Source: an uncultured Kocuria sp.
Lineage (GTDB): Bacteria; Actinomycetota; Actinomycetes; Actinomycetales; Micrococcaceae
DNA length: 64,000 nucleotides
Assembly: GCF_947500125.1 (NCBI RefSeq)
Contig: NZ_CANMRA010000001.1
Coordinates: forward strand, 124,001 to 188,000
Direction: 5' to 3'
A model generated the notes under the pieces. That model was not told the DNA's origin. It saw only the letters and a list, made by a program, of their open reading frames with translations, and ran no database searches. Positions 278 through 8,543 of this stretch are shown piece by piece; within the stretch, counting starts at the first letter, position 1, and each line of letters opens with the position of its first letter. The translations under genes were made by a program, and so were the position numbers.

Positions 278-1507
278 TCAGCGGGCGGCGACGCTCCTCG
301 AGATGCGCTTCGAGGTGCGGGCCACCAGCTTCTCGAGCGGGCCCTGCCCCACCGCGCGCTGCCAGGCCACGGCCAGCAGCCCGAAGACGGCCACCTGCAT
401 CCAGAACCAGAACCCCGGGTGCAGCTCGTAGACCATCGTGGCCAGGAACAGCAGGTGCAGGGTGTAGAGCGTGAACGTCATGGACCCGGCGGCCGCCAGC
501 GGCGTGAGCGCCTTGCCGATCAGCCGGGCCAGGAGCAGGAACGCCCCCAGCGCGAACGCTGCCATGCCCAGGCTCAGCAGCAGCGCCACGGGCGTGTTGC
601 TGTGCGGGGCGGGCACCATGAGCCACCACAGCGTGGTGGTCGGCAGGGACGGGTCCGGGCCGAAGACGAGGATCTCGTCGATCTGCTCCTCGGACAGCCA
701 CGGGGTGGCCTCCCAGATCCGGTCGTAGACCCCGAGGACCAGCAGCGCCACCATGGACACCGTCCAGGAGAGCAGGGCCAGCGCCGCGCCGGCGCCCACG
801 AGCCACAGCTGCACCCGCCGGCTCGTGAGGTTCATCCGGCCCAGGGCGATCCCCGCGCACAGGTAGGCCATGTACGGCAGGGCCGGGTAGGTGCCGGTCA
901 GCAGCAGCTGGGACAGGACGGTGACCGGCTCCGTGACCAGGTTCCACAGCGTGGGGTTGCCGTACACGTGGGCGGGCAGGACGTCCACGGCCCACTGCAT
1001 CAGGAACGGAGCGACGAGGGTGAACGCCGCCGCGCTGATCAGCAGGTGCCGGATGCGCAGACCCAGGAACGGGATGGCGAGCAGGAAGAACATCCCGTAG
1101 TAGATGAGGATGTTGTCCACCGGCGGGGCCACGAAGCCCACGAGGAACCCGACGAGGGCGATCACCGCGGCGCGGCCCACCAGCCCCGCCCGGTCCCCGG
1201 CGAGGCGCCGGCCCGTGTGCGGAGTGCGGCCGCCGGAGAGGAACGCGAGGCTCACCCCGGCGAGGGTCGCGAAGAGCGCGGCCGAGTGCCCGGCGAAGAG
1301 GGACCAGCTCAGGGAGGCCCGCTCGTTCTCCGCGTCCCAGTAGGGCAGGGTGTGCACGGCGACCATCCCGAGCAGGGCGAAGCCCCGGGCGGCGTCCACA
1401 CCGACCAGCCGCCGCCGGGTGCGCTTCCCGGAGGCGCCGGGAACGTTGAGCACCGCGGTGCCCCCGCCACGCGTGGCGGCCGCGTGCTCAGCGCTCACGG
1501 GTCGCAC
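278..1507 (-). CDS. Polytopic membrane protein, DUF418/heparan-alpha-glucosaminide N-acetyltransferase-like
   Basis: 409 aa; N-terminal 'RRRLVGVDAARGFALLGMVAVHTLPYWD' typical of DUF418/acyltransferase-like membrane proteins; many TM segments. Confidence 0.75.
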   Translation of the reverse strand: MRPVSAEHAAATRGGGTAVLNVPGASGKRTRRRLVGVDAARGFALLGMVAVHTLPYWDAENERASLSWSLFAGHSAALFATLAGVSLAFLSGGRTPHTGRRLAGDRAGLVGRAAVIALVGFLVGFVAPPVDNILIYYGMFFLLAIPFLGLRIRHLLISAAAFTLVAPFLMQWAVDVLPAHVYGNPTLWNLVTEPVTVLSQLLLTGTYPALPYMAYLCAGIALGRMNLTSRRVQLWLVGAGAALALLSWTVSMVALLVLGVYDRIWEATPWLSEEQIDEILVFGPDPSLPTTTLWWLMVPAPHSNTPVALLLSLGMAAFALGAFLLLARLIGKALTPLAAAGSMTFTLYTLHLLFLATMVYELHPGFWFWMQVAVFGLLAVAWQRAVGQGPLEKLVARTSKRISRSVAAR

Positions 1508-4500
1508 CTCCGGCGGGCACGGCCCCGACGACGTCGGCGTGCAGCGGGCGGATCGGGTTGCCGCCCCAGGTGCTGCCGGCGGGAACCGTCTCCTGGGCCA
1601 TGACCAGAGAGCCGGGGCCCACGGTGGCGCCGGCCTCCACGGTGCTGCCGGGCAGCACGAAGCTGTTGGGCCCCAGGGTGGAGCCCGCCTCCATCGACAC
1701 GGGCTGCAGCCGCATGATGCGGTCGTGGAACAGGTGGGTCTGGAGCACGGTCCCGCGGTTGACGGACACGCCCCGGCCCAGGTGGACGAGGTCGAACTCG
1801 GGCAGCCACCAGGTCTCGCACCACACGCCGCGCTCGATCTTCGCGCCCATGAGCCGGGCCCAGGCGTTGAACACCGGGGAGCCGACGGCCAGCCGGATCA
1901 GGCCGGGCACGGCCAGGGACTCCGCGAAGGTGTCGGCGAGCTCGTTGCGCCACACGAAGGAGCTGAACAGCGGGCGCTCGCCCTCGCGGAAGCGGCCCAT
2001 CAGGGCCCACTTGACCAGCACGGGGACCAGGGCGGCCAGCACGCCGGCGGCGAGCACCACGGGCGTGGCCCACAGCAGCGCCGAGACGATGCCGTCGAGG
2101 CCTCCCCCGGCCCGCATGTACACGGTGGTGAGCACGAACACGATCGCGAGGTCCAGCCACGCGGTGACCATGAACGGCAGGACGCGCAGGGACTCCACGA
2201 GCGTGCGGGCCACGACCAGCCTCCGGCGCGGCCGGTAGGTGACGGCCTCGTCGGCCGCGTCGCTGACGCGGGTGATGGGCTCGGGCATCCGGCCCAGCCA
2301 GGAGGTGCCGCGCTCGGCGTCCGCCGGGGCGGAGGAGAGCACGGCGACCAGGGAGTCCTCGGGGACGTCCCGGTCCGGTCCCACGATCGCGGAGTTGCCC
2401 ACGAAGGAGCGCTCCCCCACGGTCGAGGGGCCCACGTGGATCCAGCCGAAGCCGACGCGGGCGGAGCTGACCATCGAGTGGTCGGCCATGAAGGAGCCGG
2501 ACTCGAAGGTGGTGAGGTGCGGCAGGGTCTCCACGGTGGAGATCTCCACCTGGTCGCCCACCCGGGCGCCCAGGAGCCGCAGGAAGAACGGCGTGGCGAT
2601 GGAGGCGTAGACCGGGTAGGTGGAGACGAGGCTCTTCTGCAGCAGCACGCCCGTGAGCCACACGGCCCAGCCCACGGTCCCGTCGGCGGCGTGGTGGCCG
2701 GGACGGATCAGCAGGGCGAGCGCCCGCACGACGAGCACGAGCACGGCCAGGTAGACGAGGACGGTGAGCACGGCGAAGACGGGCACCCACAGGGCCAGGA
2801 CGGGGAAGACGAGCTCGTAGAACTCGATCCCGCTGACCTGGGTGTAGACGATCAGCGCGCCGGGGACCACGGCCAGCACGGGCAGGATCCCGACCGTGCC
2901 GAGGCCCAGCGCGTACAGCAGGCCGATGAGGAACCGGTTGCTGCGACGGGGGGCCCACTCGAGCCAGGACTCCCCGGCGGCGCCGAGGTCCACGAGCGGG
3001 GAGCCGCCCTGCAGGCGGCCGGCGGGGACGGTGCCGGTGACGTGGGAGCCGGGGTGGACCTCCGCGCCGGCCTCGACCACGGCGCCCGGGCTCAGGAGCG
3101 TGCGGGTGCCGATCCGGGCGTTCTCGCCCACGGTCACGCCGTCGAGGTGGAAGACGTCGCCCTCGAGCCAGTAGCCGGAGAGGTCCACCTCGTGCTCGAC
3201 GGCCGCGCCGTCGCCGATGCGGGCCATGCCGCTGACGGGGGGCATCGTGTCGAGGTGGGCGTGCCGGCCCACCCGGTTGCCGAGCAGCCGGAAGAACAGC
3301 ACCATCACGGGGGTGCCCATGAGGGGCTCGAACTTGTTGAAGATCAGGATCCGCTCGGCCATCCAGACCCGCAGGTGGGTCCAGGAGCCGCGGGCGTGGG
3401 CGCCGGGGCGCAGCCGGAAGGTCAGCAGCCGGATGAACAGAGCGGTGAGCACGAGCCGGCCGGGCAGGGCGAAGAGCACGAGCCAGCCGACCACCAGCGG
3501 CAGCAGCGGCGGGTTCGGGACCCAGCCCGCGCCGAGCAGGTTGAAGAGCAGCCAGACGACGATCGCGGCGCCGACCACGTAGCGCAGCCCCGAGACGGCG
3601 TAGAGGGCCGTGAGGAAGGGGACCTGCACCAGGCCGTTCCAGCGCGGGACGTCGGCCACCCGGCGGGCGCGCGCGGCGTCCTGGGCGACGACGTCGACGC
3701 GGGCCAGCGTGGTCAGGTACTCGTGCATCCCGGCGAGCGTGGGGTTGCGGTAGATCTCGGCGATCTCGGCGTCCGGGTAGGTGCGCCGGAGCTCGGAGAC
3801 CAGCTTGGCCACCGCCACGGAGGTGCCGCCGAGGACGAAGAAGTCGCTGTCCTCGTCGATGGGCAGGGGGCCGAGCTGGTCCGCCCACAGGGCGGCGAGC
3901 CACTCGAGCTCGGCGTCGATCCGGGAGTCCTCCGCGGCGGCGCCGGCGGAGGGCAGCGGCCAGGGCAGGGCCTTGCGGTCCACCTTGCCGGAGGTCTTCA
4001 GGGGTAGCTCGTCCATCAGGGTCAGCGCGGGCACCATCTGGCCCGGCAGGCGGTCGGCAAGCAGGCGGCGGGCGACCTGGAGGTCCACGGATCCGGGGGC
4101 GTCGGCCACGAGGTAGCCCACGAGGACCTGGTTGCCGGCCGGGGTGGTGTGCACGGCGGCGGCGCCGGCCTGCACACCGGGCAGTCGGGTCATCTGCTCG
4201 TCGATCTCGCCCATCTCCACGCGCCGGCCCGAGATCTTGACCTGGTCATCGGCCCGGCCCACGAAGACGATGCCCTCGGGGTCGGCGCGCACGAGGTCGC
4301 CGGAGCGGTAGGCCCGCTCCCAGCCGAGGGAGTCCATGGGCGCGAACTTCTCGGCGTCCTTGGCGGGGTCCAGGTAGCGGCCCAGCCCCACGCCGCCGAT
4401 GATCAGCTCGCCCTCCTCGCCCCAGCGCACGGGGTTGCCGGCGGTGTCCACGATGGCCAGCTCCCACCCGGGCAGCGGCAGGCCGATGCGCACGGGCGGC

Positions 4501-5561
4501 TCGCCGGTGAGCACGGCTCCGGTCGCGATGACCGTGGCCTCGGTGGGGCCGTAGGTGTTCCAGACCTCGCGGCCGGGGTGCGCGAGACGGGCGGCGAGCT
4601 CGTTGGGGCACGCCTCCCCGCCGAAGATGAGCAGGCGGATGCGGCTCAGCGCCTCGGCCGGCCACATCGACGCGAGCGTCGGCACCGTGGAGACGGCGGT
4701 GATGTCCCGCTCGACGAGCCACGGGCCCAGGTCGGTGCCCGAGCGCACGACCGCGCGCGGGGCCGGGACCAGGGCGGCGCCGGAGCGCCAGGCCAGCCAC
4801 ATCTCCTCGCAGGAGGCGTCGAAGGCCACGGAGAGGCCCGCCATCACGCGGTCGCCCGGGCCCAGCGGGCGCCGGGGCAGGTAGAGCTCGGCCTCGGCGT
4901 CCACGAGGGCGGCGGCCGAGCGGTGGCTGATCGCCACGCCCTTGGGCTTGCCGGTGGACCCGGAGGTGAAGATGATCCAGGCGTCGTCGCCCGTACCGGG
5001 CTGGCGGCAGTCCGCGGCCGGCCGGACGCCGCTGCGCGGTCGCAGGGCCAGGCCCGCGCCGTAGACGGCGCACACCCCGGCCTCCTCCCAGACCGTGTTC
5101 GCACGCTCGTCCGGGTCGTCGAAGTCGACCGGGACGTAGGCGGCGCCGGCGAAGATCGTGCCGAGGACGGCCACGTAGAGGTCCACGGTCCCGGAGGGCA
5201 CGCGGATGCCCACGCGGTCCCCGCGGCCGATGTCGAGGTCCCACAGACGCTGGGCCTGGGCCTCGACGCGCTCGAGGAACTCGGCGTAGCTGAGCTCGGT
5301 GGTCCCGTCGTCGACGGCCACCGCGTCCGGGTGGCGCGAGACCGTGTCCATGACGATGTCCACGAGCGTGCGCGGCGCCGGCGCGGACGAGACGGGGAAG
5401 ACGGCGCGGCCCGGGACCTGCGGCAGGGGCTGCGTGTGCAGCGCGCGGTCGAGGACCTCCCCGTCCTCCAGCCGGTCCTGCTCCGGGTACCGGTCCTCGA
5501 GCAGGTGCCGTCCGCTCCCCTGGCGGGTCGAGCCGCTGCGCGTGCTTGGGCGCACTGTCAT
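1488..5561 (-). CDS. Pls/PosA-family NRPS-like synthetase (adenylation domain, PCP, TM domains, hexapeptide-repeat domains); epsilon-poly-amino-acid synthetase-like
   Basis: A-domain motifs IIFTSGSTGKPKG, AFDASCEEMWLAW, NTYGPTEATV, YRSGDLVR, KTSGKVDRKAL; PCP 'FFVLGGTSVAVAKL'; then several TM blocks and left-handed beta-helix hexapeptide regions. ATG chosen at 5561 (MTVRPSTRSG...) after GGGGGAATCA. Confidence 0.88.
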   Translation of the reverse strand: MTVRPSTRSGSTRQGSGRHLLEDRYPEQDRLEDGEVLDRALHTQPLPQVPGRAVFPVSSAPAPRTLVDIVMDTVSRHPDAVAVDDGTTELSYAEFLERVEAQAQRLWDLDIGRGDRVGIRVPSGTVDLYVAVLGTIFAGAAYVPVDFDDPDERANTVWEEAGVCAVYGAGLALRPRSGVRPAADCRQPGTGDDAWIIFTSGSTGKPKGVAISHRSAAALVDAEAELYLPRRPLGPGDRVMAGLSVAFDASCEEMWLAWRSGAALVPAPRAVVRSGTDLGPWLVERDITAVSTVPTLASMWPAEALSRIRLLIFGGEACPNELAARLAHPGREVWNTYGPTEATVIATGAVLTGEPPVRIGLPLPGWELAIVDTAGNPVRWGEEGELIIGGVGLGRYLDPAKDAEKFAPMDSLGWERAYRSGDLVRADPEGIVFVGRADDQVKISGRRVEMGEIDEQMTRLPGVQAGAAAVHTTPAGNQVLVGYLVADAPGSVDLQVARRLLADRLPGQMVPALTLMDELPLKTSGKVDRKALPWPLPSAGAAAEDSRIDAELEWLAALWADQLGPLPIDEDSDFFVLGGTSVAVAKLVSELRRTYPDAEIAEIYRNPTLAGMHEYLTTLARVDVVAQDAARARRVADVPRWNGLVQVPFLTALYAVSGLRYVVGAAIVVWLLFNLLGAGWVPNPPLLPLVVGWLVLFALPGRLVLTALFIRLLTFRLRPGAHARGSWTHLRVWMAERILIFNKFEPLMGTPVMVLFFRLLGNRVGRHAHLDTMPPVSGMARIGDGAAVEHEVDLSGYWLEGDVFHLDGVTVGENARIGTRTLLSPGAVVEAGAEVHPGSHVTGTVPAGRLQGGSPLVDLGAAGESWLEWAPRRSNRFLIGLLYALGLGTVGILPVLAVVPGALIVYTQVSGIEFYELVFPVLALWVPVFAVLTVLVYLAVLVLVVRALALLIRPGHHAADGTVGWAVWLTGVLLQKSLVSTYPVYASIATPFFLRLLGARVGDQVEISTVETLPHLTTFESGSFMADHSMVSSARVGFGWIHVGPSTVGERSFVGNSAIVGPDRDVPEDSLVAVLSSAPADAERGTSWLGRMPEPITRVSDAADEAVTYRPRRRLVVARTLVESLRVLPFMVTAWLDLAIVFVLTTVYMRAGGGLDGIVSALLWATPVVLAAGVLAALVPVLVKWALMGRFREGERPLFSSFVWRNELADTFAESLAVPGLIRLAVGSPVFNAWARLMGAKIERGVWCETWWLPEFDLVHLGRGVSVNRGTVLQTHLFHDRIMRLQPVSMEAGSTLGPNSFVLPGSTVEAGATVGPGSLVMAQETVPAGSTWGGNPIRPLHADVVGAVPAGGATRER

Positions 5562-5904
5562 TGATTCCCCCATCGATGTTTCCGCCGCCGCGGATCTGCG
5601 CAGCGGCCGGTGCCGACAGAAAGAACGAGCCCAGGGACCGGTCGGACCGGCTGGAAGGCTCCCGGGAGCACGCGCGCCGATCAGCGCGGTGCCGAGAGCG
5701 GTTGTGCGGCCTCGATGCCCCCACATCGGCCTTCCCCCTGAACCGGCTCCCCTGCCAGTTCTACTTACTGCACCGTACGGTCGGTGCTGTTGCATCTGCA
5801 AGCCGGCGGGGGCCCGGAGGCCTGCCGCGGCGGCGCCGTCTCCCCCGTCGTCCCGCGCGAATCCGCGGATGCCGCCCTGACCAGGGACGACGACGAGAGA
5901 TCGG

Positions 5905-6894
5905 TCACGTGTCCCCTGCCGCGCGCTCCGGCGAGCGCTCCCCGGCGGTCATCGCCGCGTCCAGCACCCGGGCCTCGGGCAGCTCGAAGTGGTCCACGCC
6001 CTCGCGGTAGCGCACGCTGGTCCGCTCGTAGCCGGCGTCCTCGTACCAGGCGTGCCCGGCGGCCGCCGCGGAGAGGGCGTCGAACGGGGCCCACGGGTCG
6101 GTGCCGTCGTCCTCGAGGCCCACGTCCCAGTGCAGGACCAGCTGCTCGAGCTGCTCGTCGGTCGGCTCCGAGGAGCCGGAGGACGGCGCGCCGCCCCCGC
6201 CGGAGAGCACCGCGCCGCCGCCCGCCAGGAAGTCCGCGCGGTCGGCCAGCAGCTCGTAGCTGATGAACTCGGCGCCCCCGGAGTAGCCGTGCAGCCAGGT
6301 GCGGGAGCGGTCGAGGTCGTACTCGGCGAAGATCTCCTGCTCGGCGAGGGCCAGGAACCACTCGGCGTTGCCGTCGAGGTCCTCCCACCAGGTGGGCTCG
6401 CCCTGCCGGTCCGGGGTGCGGGGAGCCACGAGCACCGCGTTGTGCGAGCGCGCGACCTCCGCGAGGCAGGAGACCTTGTGCTGCGGGTGGTGGTACTCGT
6501 AGGCGCCATCCCCGTGGAGCCGGAAGACCACGCCCACCGGCTCGCTCCAGTCGATGCCCTCGGCGAAGACGTGGTAGCTGCTGGTCGTGCCGTCGTGCTC
6601 GAAGGCGACGTCGAGCCGGTCGGAGGGGCCCTCCGCCCAGCGCATTCCGCCGGAGCGCACCGGGCCGTCGGAGAGCGGACCGCTCCCGCCGCGCGGGGCG
6701 ATGCTCACGTCCTCGAGTCCGTAGGGGGCGCAGGAGACCTGCTCCTCGGGGGCGGGGGCCGGCTGCCACGCCCAGCGGACGGCGAGCGACGCGGCGACCA
6801 GCGCCAGGAGGGTCCCGGTGAGAATGGCCACATCCACGGCCCAGCGGGAACCGCGGCGCGGCGCGGCCTCGCCCGGTCCCGTCCGTGTTTTCAC
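5905..6894 (-). CDS. Membrane-anchored/secreted alpha/beta hydrolase (esterase/PHB-depolymerase-like)
   Basis: 329 aa; N-terminal TM segment; nucleophile elbow GYSGGAEF; C-terminal GVDHFELP. Confidence 0.65.
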   Translation of the reverse strand: MKTRTGPGEAAPRRGSRWAVDVAILTGTLLALVAASLAVRWAWQPAPAPEEQVSCAPYGLEDVSIAPRGGSGPLSDGPVRSGGMRWAEGPSDRLDVAFEHDGTTSSYHVFAEGIDWSEPVGVVFRLHGDGAYEYHHPQHKVSCLAEVARSHNAVLVAPRTPDRQGEPTWWEDLDGNAEWFLALAEQEIFAEYDLDRSRTWLHGYSGGAEFISYELLADRADFLAGGGAVLSGGGGAPSSGSSEPTDEQLEQLVLHWDVGLEDDGTDPWAPFDALSAAAAGHAWYEDAGYERTSVRYREGVDHFELPEARVLDAAMTAGERSPERAAGDT

Positions 6895-7049
6895 CCGTTC
6901 ATCCTAGGGGGAGGCGCCGCGCGCCGCCCCTCGCCGATTTTTGGGTTCGCAACGTCTCCCCCATAATCGGCCAGGACCGTTCGGGGGGACGGCGCCCCCC
7001 ACTTCCTCCTTCCGTGGTCCGTCCACCGCACCAGAGGAGAAGATTCCGC

Positions 7050-8543
7050 GTGACCATCACCGCACGCCCTCGGGCCGAGCAGAGCGCTCCTGAGATCCAG
7101 GAGCAGCTGCCGTCCCAGGACCGGCTGCGCCGCAGCCTCAAGCCCCGTCACCTGACCATGATCGCGATGGGCGGTGCCATCGGCACCGGCCTGTTCGTGG
7201 CCTCGGGCAACACCATCGCCACCGCCGGGCCGGGAGGGGCGCTGCTGGCCTACGTGGTCATCGGCTTCATGGTCTTCCTGCTGATGCAGAGCCTGGGCGA
7301 GATGGCCACCTACCTGCCGGTCTCGGGCGCGTTCGAGGAGTACTCGACCCGCTTCGTGAGCCCGTCCTTCGGCTTCGCCATCGGCTGGAACTACTGGTAC
7401 AACTGGGCGATCACCGTGGCCGCGGAGCTCGTGGCCGCCGCGCTGATCATGCGCTACTGGTTCCCGGACGTGCCCTCGTGGATCTGGTCCGGGTCCTTCC
7501 TGGCGATCCTCTTCGCGCTCAACGCGCTGAGCGCCCGGGCCTACGGCGAGAGCGAGTTCTGGTTCTCCCTCGTGAAGGTCGTCACGGTCGTGCTCTTCCT
7601 GGGGCTCGGCATCCTGATGATCGTCGGCATCCTGGGCGGGGAGTCGCCCGGCTTCGAGAACTGGACCACCGGGGAGGCGCCCTTCGTGGGCGGCGGCCTC
7701 GGCATCCTGGCCATCTTCATGGTGGCCGGCTTCTCCTTCCAGGGCACCGAGCTCGTGGGCGTGGCCGCCGGTGAGGCGGAGGACCCGGAGAAGAACGTCC
7801 CGCGCGCCATCCGCACCGTGTTCGTGCGCATCCTGCTCTTCTACGTGGGCGCCATCACCGTGATCGGCTTCCTCATCCCCTACACCAGCCCCAACCTGCT
7901 CACGAGCGGGGTCGAGGACATCTCCATCTCCCCGTTCACCCTGGTCTTCCAGAACGCGGGGGTCCTCGCGGCGGCCTCCGTGATGAACGCGGTGATCCTC
8001 ACGGCCATCCTCTCCGCCGGCAACTCCGGGCTCTACGCCTCCACCCGCATGCTCTGGGCCCTGGCCGAGGGCGGCAAGGCCCCGCGCTTCCTGGCGAAGG
8101 TCAACCGCCGCGGCGTGCCCATGAACGCGCTGATCGCCACCACCCTGGTGGGCGGGGCGTCCTTCCTCACCACCTTCATCGGGGACGGGGACGCCTACGT
8201 GTGGCTGGTCAGCGCCTCGGGCCTGGCCGGGTTCATCGTGTGGATGGGCATCGCGTGGAGTCACTACCGGTTCCGCAAGGCGTACACGGTCCAGGGCCAC
8301 GACCTCGCCGACCTCCCCTACCGGGCGCGGTTCTTCCCGCTGGGCCCGGTGGTGGCGCTCGTGCTGTGCGCCGTGGTGATCCTCGGGCAGAACTACCAGG
8401 CGTTCATCGGCGACATGGACCTGATGGCCGCCCTGACCGCCTACATCGGCCTGCCGCTGTTCCTGGTCCTGTGGTTCGGCCACAAGCTGCTCACCGGCTC
8501 GAGGATGGTCCGCTACGAGGACGCCGACCTCACCCGGGCGTGA
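7050..8543 (+). CDS. Amino acid permease (APC superfamily, AAT family)
   Basis: GTG start with AGAGGAGAAG upstream; 'LKPRHLTMIAMGGAIGTGLFVASGNTIATAGPGG' is the classic AAT permease signature. Confidence 0.9.
   Translation: MTITARPRAEQSAPEIQEQLPSQDRLRRSLKPRHLTMIAMGGAIGTGLFVASGNTIATAGPGGALLAYVVIGFMVFLLMQSLGEMATYLPVSGAFEEYSTRFVSPSFGFAIGWNYWYNWAITVAAELVAAALIMRYWFPDVPSWIWSGSFLAILFALNALSARAYGESEFWFSLVKVVTVVLFLGLGILMIVGILGGESPGFENWTTGEAPFVGGGLGILAIFMVAGFSFQGTELVGVAAGEAEDPEKNVPRAIRTVFVRILLFYVGAITVIGFLIPYTSPNLLTSGVEDISISPFTLVFQNAGVLAAASVMNAVILTAILSAGNSGLYASTRMLWALAEGGKAPRFLAKVNRRGVPMNALIATTLVGGASFLTTFIGDGDAYVWLVSASGLAGFIVWMGIAWSHYRFRKAYTVQGHDLADLPYRARFFPLGPVVALVLCAVVILGQNYQAFIGDMDLMAALTAYIGLPLFLVLWFGHKLLTGSRMVRYEDADLTRA

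Follow-up and report, generated by a model that had tools for sequence, protein, structure and literature searches.

A Pls/PosA-family synthetase locus of Kocuria, probably for epsilon-poly-L-lysine, with a transmembrane acyltransferase gene in the position of pldII

Four genes of the window (the whole stretch of 64,000 nucleotides that was analysed) are listed in Table 1, together with the domains of the synthetase gene pls. The hydrolase gene lies upstream of pls; on the other side, the last 20 bases of pls are shared with the acyltransferase gene.

Table 1. Coordinates of the genes and domains at the pls locus and the evidence for each assignment.
Feature	Position	Strand	Evidence and details
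Transmembrane acyltransferase, HGSNAT/TmAT type	278..1507	(-)	PF07786, TmAT motifs, fold, synteny
pls, epsilon-poly-L-lysine synthetase-like (longest frame)	1488..5801	(-)	TIGR02353, Pfam, best solved relative 7wew
Candidate ATG starts of pls	about 5573 or 5561	(-)	
Adenylation (A) domain of pls	3966..5345	(-)	Pocket code DAESIGTVIK
Carrier (T) domain of pls	3714..3905	(-)	PF00550, E 9.1e-10; phosphopantetheine Ser609 in GGTS
Membrane-embedded polymerisation region of pls	1551..3614	(-)	TIGR02353, Hexapep, hydropathy; 6 TM segments and hexapeptide-repeat domains
Alpha/beta serine hydrolase with a membrane anchor, 5′ of pls on the same strand	5905..6894	(-)	Triad, TM, fold, synteny
Probable lysine permease of LysP type, divergent	7050..8543 (longest frame from 6885)	(+)	PF00324; 661 bits to 9eyd

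The reading frame of pls was free of interruptions, and the gene is intact. In the encoded protein, Pfam found a single AMP-binding domain (E 4.5e-60), a single PP-binding domain and hexapeptide repeats, and no condensation or thioesterase domain. The hydropathy scan placed exactly six membrane segments in the C-terminal half, arranged in three pairs (residues 681-743, 905-986, and 1153-1219), which is the pattern known for the Pls/PosA family (PMC10522769, PMC8117764). Moreover, the Pls/PosA model TIGR02353 matched over positions 7-695 of 695 and scored 544.8 bits, above its cut-off of 423.1. These results confirmed the content described in the initial annotation (one A domain, one GGTS carrier, membrane and hexapeptide regions, no condensation or thioesterase domain) and supported its assignment to the isopeptide homopolymer synthetases of the Pls/PosA type. 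The Pls of Kocuria polaris was 95% identical to that of the window. The gene is an intact Pls/PosA-family synthetase gene, ordinary for its kind, and its product adds a member to an established family. Two more synthetases of this family are encoded in the genome (G000), one at G000:C19:2840-6712 (L099:2609-6718) with the code DFEYLGTVTK and one at G000:C1:27616-31507 (L086) with the code DFECLSVVTK; these codes suggest diaminopropionate- or diaminobutyrate-type polymers. The second one is split over two frames, being frameshifted or misassembled, and its counterpart in G093 has a long frame.

The acyltransferase matched HGSNAT_cat (PF07786) in Pfam with an E of 3.6e-12. Its motif residues, read from an alignment of 20 relatives, were D38xxR41, F79xxxxG84, R106/R112, G219/G223, and Y348; the marks of the TmAT superfamily are DxxR, FxxxxG, an Arg in TMH3, a Gly in TMH6, and a Tyr in TMH9 (PMC12423673). 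In addition, His52 has the spacing of the AT3 motif DxxRx10H. The sequence gave no matches to solved structures, and only the comparison of folds was informative. The predicted structure had a pLDDT of 91, and its sole convincing fold match was human HGSNAT (E 3e-4, probability 1.00), with a modest TM of 0.46-0.49. By its motifs and its predicted membrane fold, the product belongs to the TmAT superfamily. Proteins of the TmAT/HGSNAT type move acyl groups through the membrane onto an acceptor outside.

The same family has at least 20 copies in this genome, mostly away from synthetases; several paralogues adjoin two-component systems and others adjoin different genes. With 20 genomic copies, many of them elsewhere, a family exclusive to synthetase loci was ruled out. 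The paralogues, at 44-65% identity, were found on contigs C1, C14, C16, C18, C22, C33, C37, C39, C40, and C53 of G000; the one-contig relative G104 had 20, and most other Kocuria had 0-11. Relatives of the acyltransferase were also found at or near Pls/PosA synthetases distant from the lysine type (G083:C63:84597-89641 and G083:C53:70309-77708).

The survival of a producer in the presence of its own polycation is usually ascribed to PldII, an M1-family aminopeptidase that degrades epsilon-poly-lysine. An M1 peptidase of this type lay 3′ of pls in 56 of the 61 loci L020-L080, whereas the acyltransferase gene lay there, directly or after dapA, in 15 of the first 16 relatives, the sixteenth being at a contig end. 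The acyltransferase-linked pls genes came from Micrococcaceae and Corynebacterium, and the PldII-linked ones from most other Actinomycetota sampled. On the tree of 83 synthetases, each partner label corresponded to a single change (SH-aLRT 99), and none of 500 shuffles was as low; one Arthrobacter metagenome assembly (L041) fell within the acyltransferase group with neither partner visible. In the 27 Kocuria genomes, for which adjacency was taken from the coordinates, the acyltransferase was beside pls in all 16 testable copies of the window type, and an M1 gene was beside pls in all five copies of the other type. The family survey of 91 genomes agreed, with the acyltransferase beside pls in 11 of 11 window-type copies. 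At the window locus, no M1 peptidase directly follows pls, and the acyltransferase gene occupies the operon position held by PldII in other Actinomycetota. In Paeniglutamicibacter antarcticus (L010:3530-12885), two divergent pls genes, one of each clade, stand side by side; an M1 peptidase gene comes after the one, and dapA with the acyltransferase gene after its neighbour.

The initial annotation had proposed a model of import, polymerisation and trimming. Its core synthetase was retained, but the model omitted the acyltransferase gene, which is the most constant neighbour of pls. This enzyme may act on the polymer, or in self-protection or finishing of the product, an assignment to which we give a little less than even odds. 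A narrower and less likely version is that producers among the Micrococcaceae and Corynebacterium would achieve protection or finishing by acylating the free amines of the polymer outside the membrane with this HGSNAT-like enzyme, in replacement of PldII, with an N-acylated epsilon-poly-lysine as the natural product. A PldII-like M1 peptidase is encoded elsewhere in this genome, unlinked (G000:C20:19943-21259), and the cell may therefore be protected by means outside the operon. At E 1e-20, no PldII homologue was found in seven pls-bearing Kocuria genomes (G061, G084, G098, G099, G102, G103, and G111).

Alternatively, the acyltransferase might modify a wall polymer or lipid of the envelope for tolerance of the polycation and leave the polymer untouched, which is a serious possibility although short of a probable one. 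TmAT enzymes acylate many envelope acceptors (PMC12423673), and the 20 family copies here, like the 20 in the one-contig relative, mostly lack an adjoining synthetase, so that the acceptor need not be the polymer. However, in 15 of 16 loci the gene overlaps or is closely coupled to pls, or to dapA after pls, which argues for a role tied to the polymer; an envelope target is still compatible with this.

The presence of a membrane-anchored alpha/beta hydrolase next to the synthetase, as originally annotated, was borne out by a single N-terminal membrane helix (residues 18-43 by hydropathy) and an intact catalytic triad, S205/D262/H302, which was invariant in the alignment. Like PldII, the enzyme is probably located outside the membrane. 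Its sequence gave nothing meaningful among the solved structures. The structural model (pLDDT 83) matched esterases and also, distantly, the poly(aspartic acid) hydrolase PahZ1 and a PHB depolymerase, but these matches are generic for alpha/beta hydrolases (917 at E 0.001) and serve as a lead only. Besides the window, linkage of this gene to pls was seen in five further loci of Kocuria, in Nesterenkonia, and in a single Corynebacterium. In the 91-genome survey, it was linked in 6 of the 11 pls genes of the acyltransferase clade, and none was seen beside a PldII-type pls. The description of the hydrolase as dedicated is partly supported; roughly half of the clade lacks the gene beside pls. About 18 kb from pls there is another hydrolase-acyltransferase pair, with no synthetase between its two genes, whose products are 55% and 65% identical to those of the pls-linked pair (G000:C1:106045-108337; L085:5983-8449).

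Polyol esters of epsilon-poly-lysine exist, and the hydrolase could conceivably cleave the polymer or an ester at its end, which we regard as a tentative assignment. A stronger role is also conceivable, though again on the less probable side: the hydrolase might be the functional substitute for PldII, cleaving epsilon-poly-lysine, with the acyltransferase as secondary. The anchor, the probable location outside the membrane and the intact triad would suit such a role, as would the distant fold matches to polymer-cleaving enzymes and the position of the gene immediately 5′ of pls in several Kocuria. On the other hand, about half of the clade has no hydrolase beside pls, Nesterenkonia has the hydrolase together with an M1 peptidase, and the fold matches are generic.

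The divergently transcribed amino acid permease beside the locus was confirmed by PF00324. Its nearest solved relative was the lysine-specific permease LysP (PDB 9eyd), matched over residues 29-497, and its score for NCBIfam PRK10836, 722.5, was slightly below the cut-off of 735. A close LysP-like gene was present in all 27 Kocuria genomes searched, but it stood beside pls only in G000, G093, G104, G110, G096, and G106, which are the genomes with the most similar Pls; G093, G104, and G096 had a second LysP-like copy elsewhere. As the linkage was confined to these six close Kocuria genomes, the permease was ruled out as a conserved partner of pls. The initial annotation had called it dedicated, a claim that is weak for a core Kocuria gene. 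It is unlikely that the permease imports lysine as a service to the pls locus.

The A domain of Pls was 63.6% identical to that of Streptomyces albulus Pls (PDB 7wew) over 494 aligned residues (668 bits). Nine of the ten pocket residues were shared between DAESIGTVIK in the window and DAESIGTVVK in 7wew; the sole difference, V331I, is inside the pocket and counts against a reading as lysine. The acidic pocket residues D235 and E239 were present, with Ala at 236. Mutation of the residues equivalent to D235 and E239 abolishes the activity of PosA, and Ala at 236 is typical of Lys-activating Pls/PosA members (PMC10522769). The code check proposed earlier thus turned up the acidic pair expected for a diamino acid, in a code that departs from that of S. 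albulus at a single position. DAESIGTVIK also occurred in Kocuria, Arthrobacter, Zafaria, Citricoccus, Paeniglutamicibacter, and one Corynebacterium, DAESIGTIIK in two other Corynebacterium loci, and DAESIGTVVK in the remaining actinobacterial copies. On the tree of 83 synthetases, which held no experimentally proven Pls, the window Pls clustered with the Lys-code Pls, with the DFEYLGTVTK paralogue as a far row, which is an indirect indication of the Lys type.

Evidence independent of the pocket code came from dapA (DHDPS), the first dedicated gene of the lysine/diaminopimelate pathway. In five relatives from Arthrobacter, Citricoccus, Nesterenkonia, and Paeniglutamicibacter, it was found between pls and the acyltransferase gene, overlapping or abutting pls (E 1e-69 to 1e-78 in four of them, and recognised with an HMM in the fifth); it was not found at the pls loci of Kocuria, that of the window included. 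Its occurrence in five sister operons points to lysine as the monomer, and the pls-dapA-acyltransferase operon is a simple genomic marker for it. The LysP-like neighbour fits lysine as a second piece of context, and the two PPTase-family genes of the genome were also counted in favour of epsilon-poly-lysine. We strongly infer that the substrate is L-lysine and the product epsilon-poly-L-lysine, and we put the probability that the locus synthesises epsilon-poly-lysine at about 0.87. The substrate, left as unknown in the initial annotation, can thus be named from the A-domain code.

It is improbable that this Pls/PosA enzyme makes another polymer (of ornithine, diaminobutyrate, or beta-lysine) or else a short, capped oligomer. 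The pocket departs from that of S. albulus Pls at one residue, the product cannot be predicted with certainty from a code, and PosA surprised its authors (PMC10522769). However, the known non-Lys codes differ at several positions (DMEHNGTVSK in PosA and DGESISVVNK for beta-Lys), dapA and LysP point to lysine, and the two other synthetases of the genome have clearly different codes. That the synthetase acts alone among mere bystanders is very improbable; the permease is indeed a Kocuria core gene usually located elsewhere, but the acyltransferase accompanied pls in every testable window-type copy of the Kocuria set and of the family survey, and across genera including Corynebacterium.

Given the observed family, pocket code, motifs, folds, synteny and partner switch, we infer each activity of the following mechanism. 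From the family and the pocket code, the A domain would activate L-lysine, the carrier domain would hold it, and the membrane-embedded C-terminal region would join the lysines through the epsilon-amino group; the divergent LysP could bring lysine in. The acyltransferase would take acyl groups, probably acetyl, from cytosolic acyl-CoA. Its acceptor would be extracytoplasmic, most likely the amino groups of the emerging polymer, or else an envelope target, and the acylation would serve self-protection or finishing of the product. The anchored serine hydrolase might trim the polymer or cut an ester end.

Epsilon-poly-lysine is an antimicrobial polymer used as a food preservative, with Streptomyces as the industrial source. 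An intact gene for such a synthetase was present in most Kocuria genomes searched and also in relatives belonging to soil and skin genera. The polymer may be protected or finished differently here than in the PldII-bearing relatives. The clade with the acyltransferase in the PldII position makes a second route of self-protection or product finishing testable, and likewise the natural occurrence of acylated poly-lysines. In the open-licence literature, to which the search was confined and which gives weak evidence of absence, no description was found of pls with dapA, of pls in Kocuria, or of poly-lysine acetylation as self-resistance. The TmAT acyltransferase in the PldII position, with dapA in some operons, is an operon variant for which that literature gave no description.

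Compared with known systems, the acyltransferase resembles human HGSNAT and other TmAT proteins in having DxxR, FxxxxG, the TMH3 Arg, and the TMH9 Tyr (PMC12423673), but differs from HGSNAT in carrying the AT3-type His of DxxRx10H and in an identity of only about 14%. The permease is like LysP (9eyd), but it is a Kocuria core gene that adjoins pls in the closest relatives only. PldII, directly 3′ of pls in the other clade, is absent at the window locus, and the local alpha/beta serine hydrolase is unrelated to it. The window Pls is of the Lys-type actinobacterial kind, like the coryneform Pls of Corynebacterium variabile and others (PMC8117764). The main text of that study makes no mention of Kocuria or of an acyltransferase, and a peptidase partner was reported in C. 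variabile, unlike in the window. The C. variabile pls produced epsilon-poly-lysine when expressed in Streptomyces coelicolor, but no polymer could be detected in C. variabile itself (PMC8117764), which indicates that such loci can be silent. PosA, the delta-poly-L-ornithine synthetase of Acinetobacter baumannii (PDB 8g95-8g98), shares the family and the essential Asp/Glu pair (PMC10522769), but its code is different and the A domains are distant. S. albulus Pls has the same domain order, TIGR02353 region, and A-domain similarity given above, with Ile for Val at 331 as the difference in the pocket. In S. albulus, translation of pls is coupled to that of pldII (PMC9223678), whereas in the window it is followed by the transmembrane acyltransferase gene.
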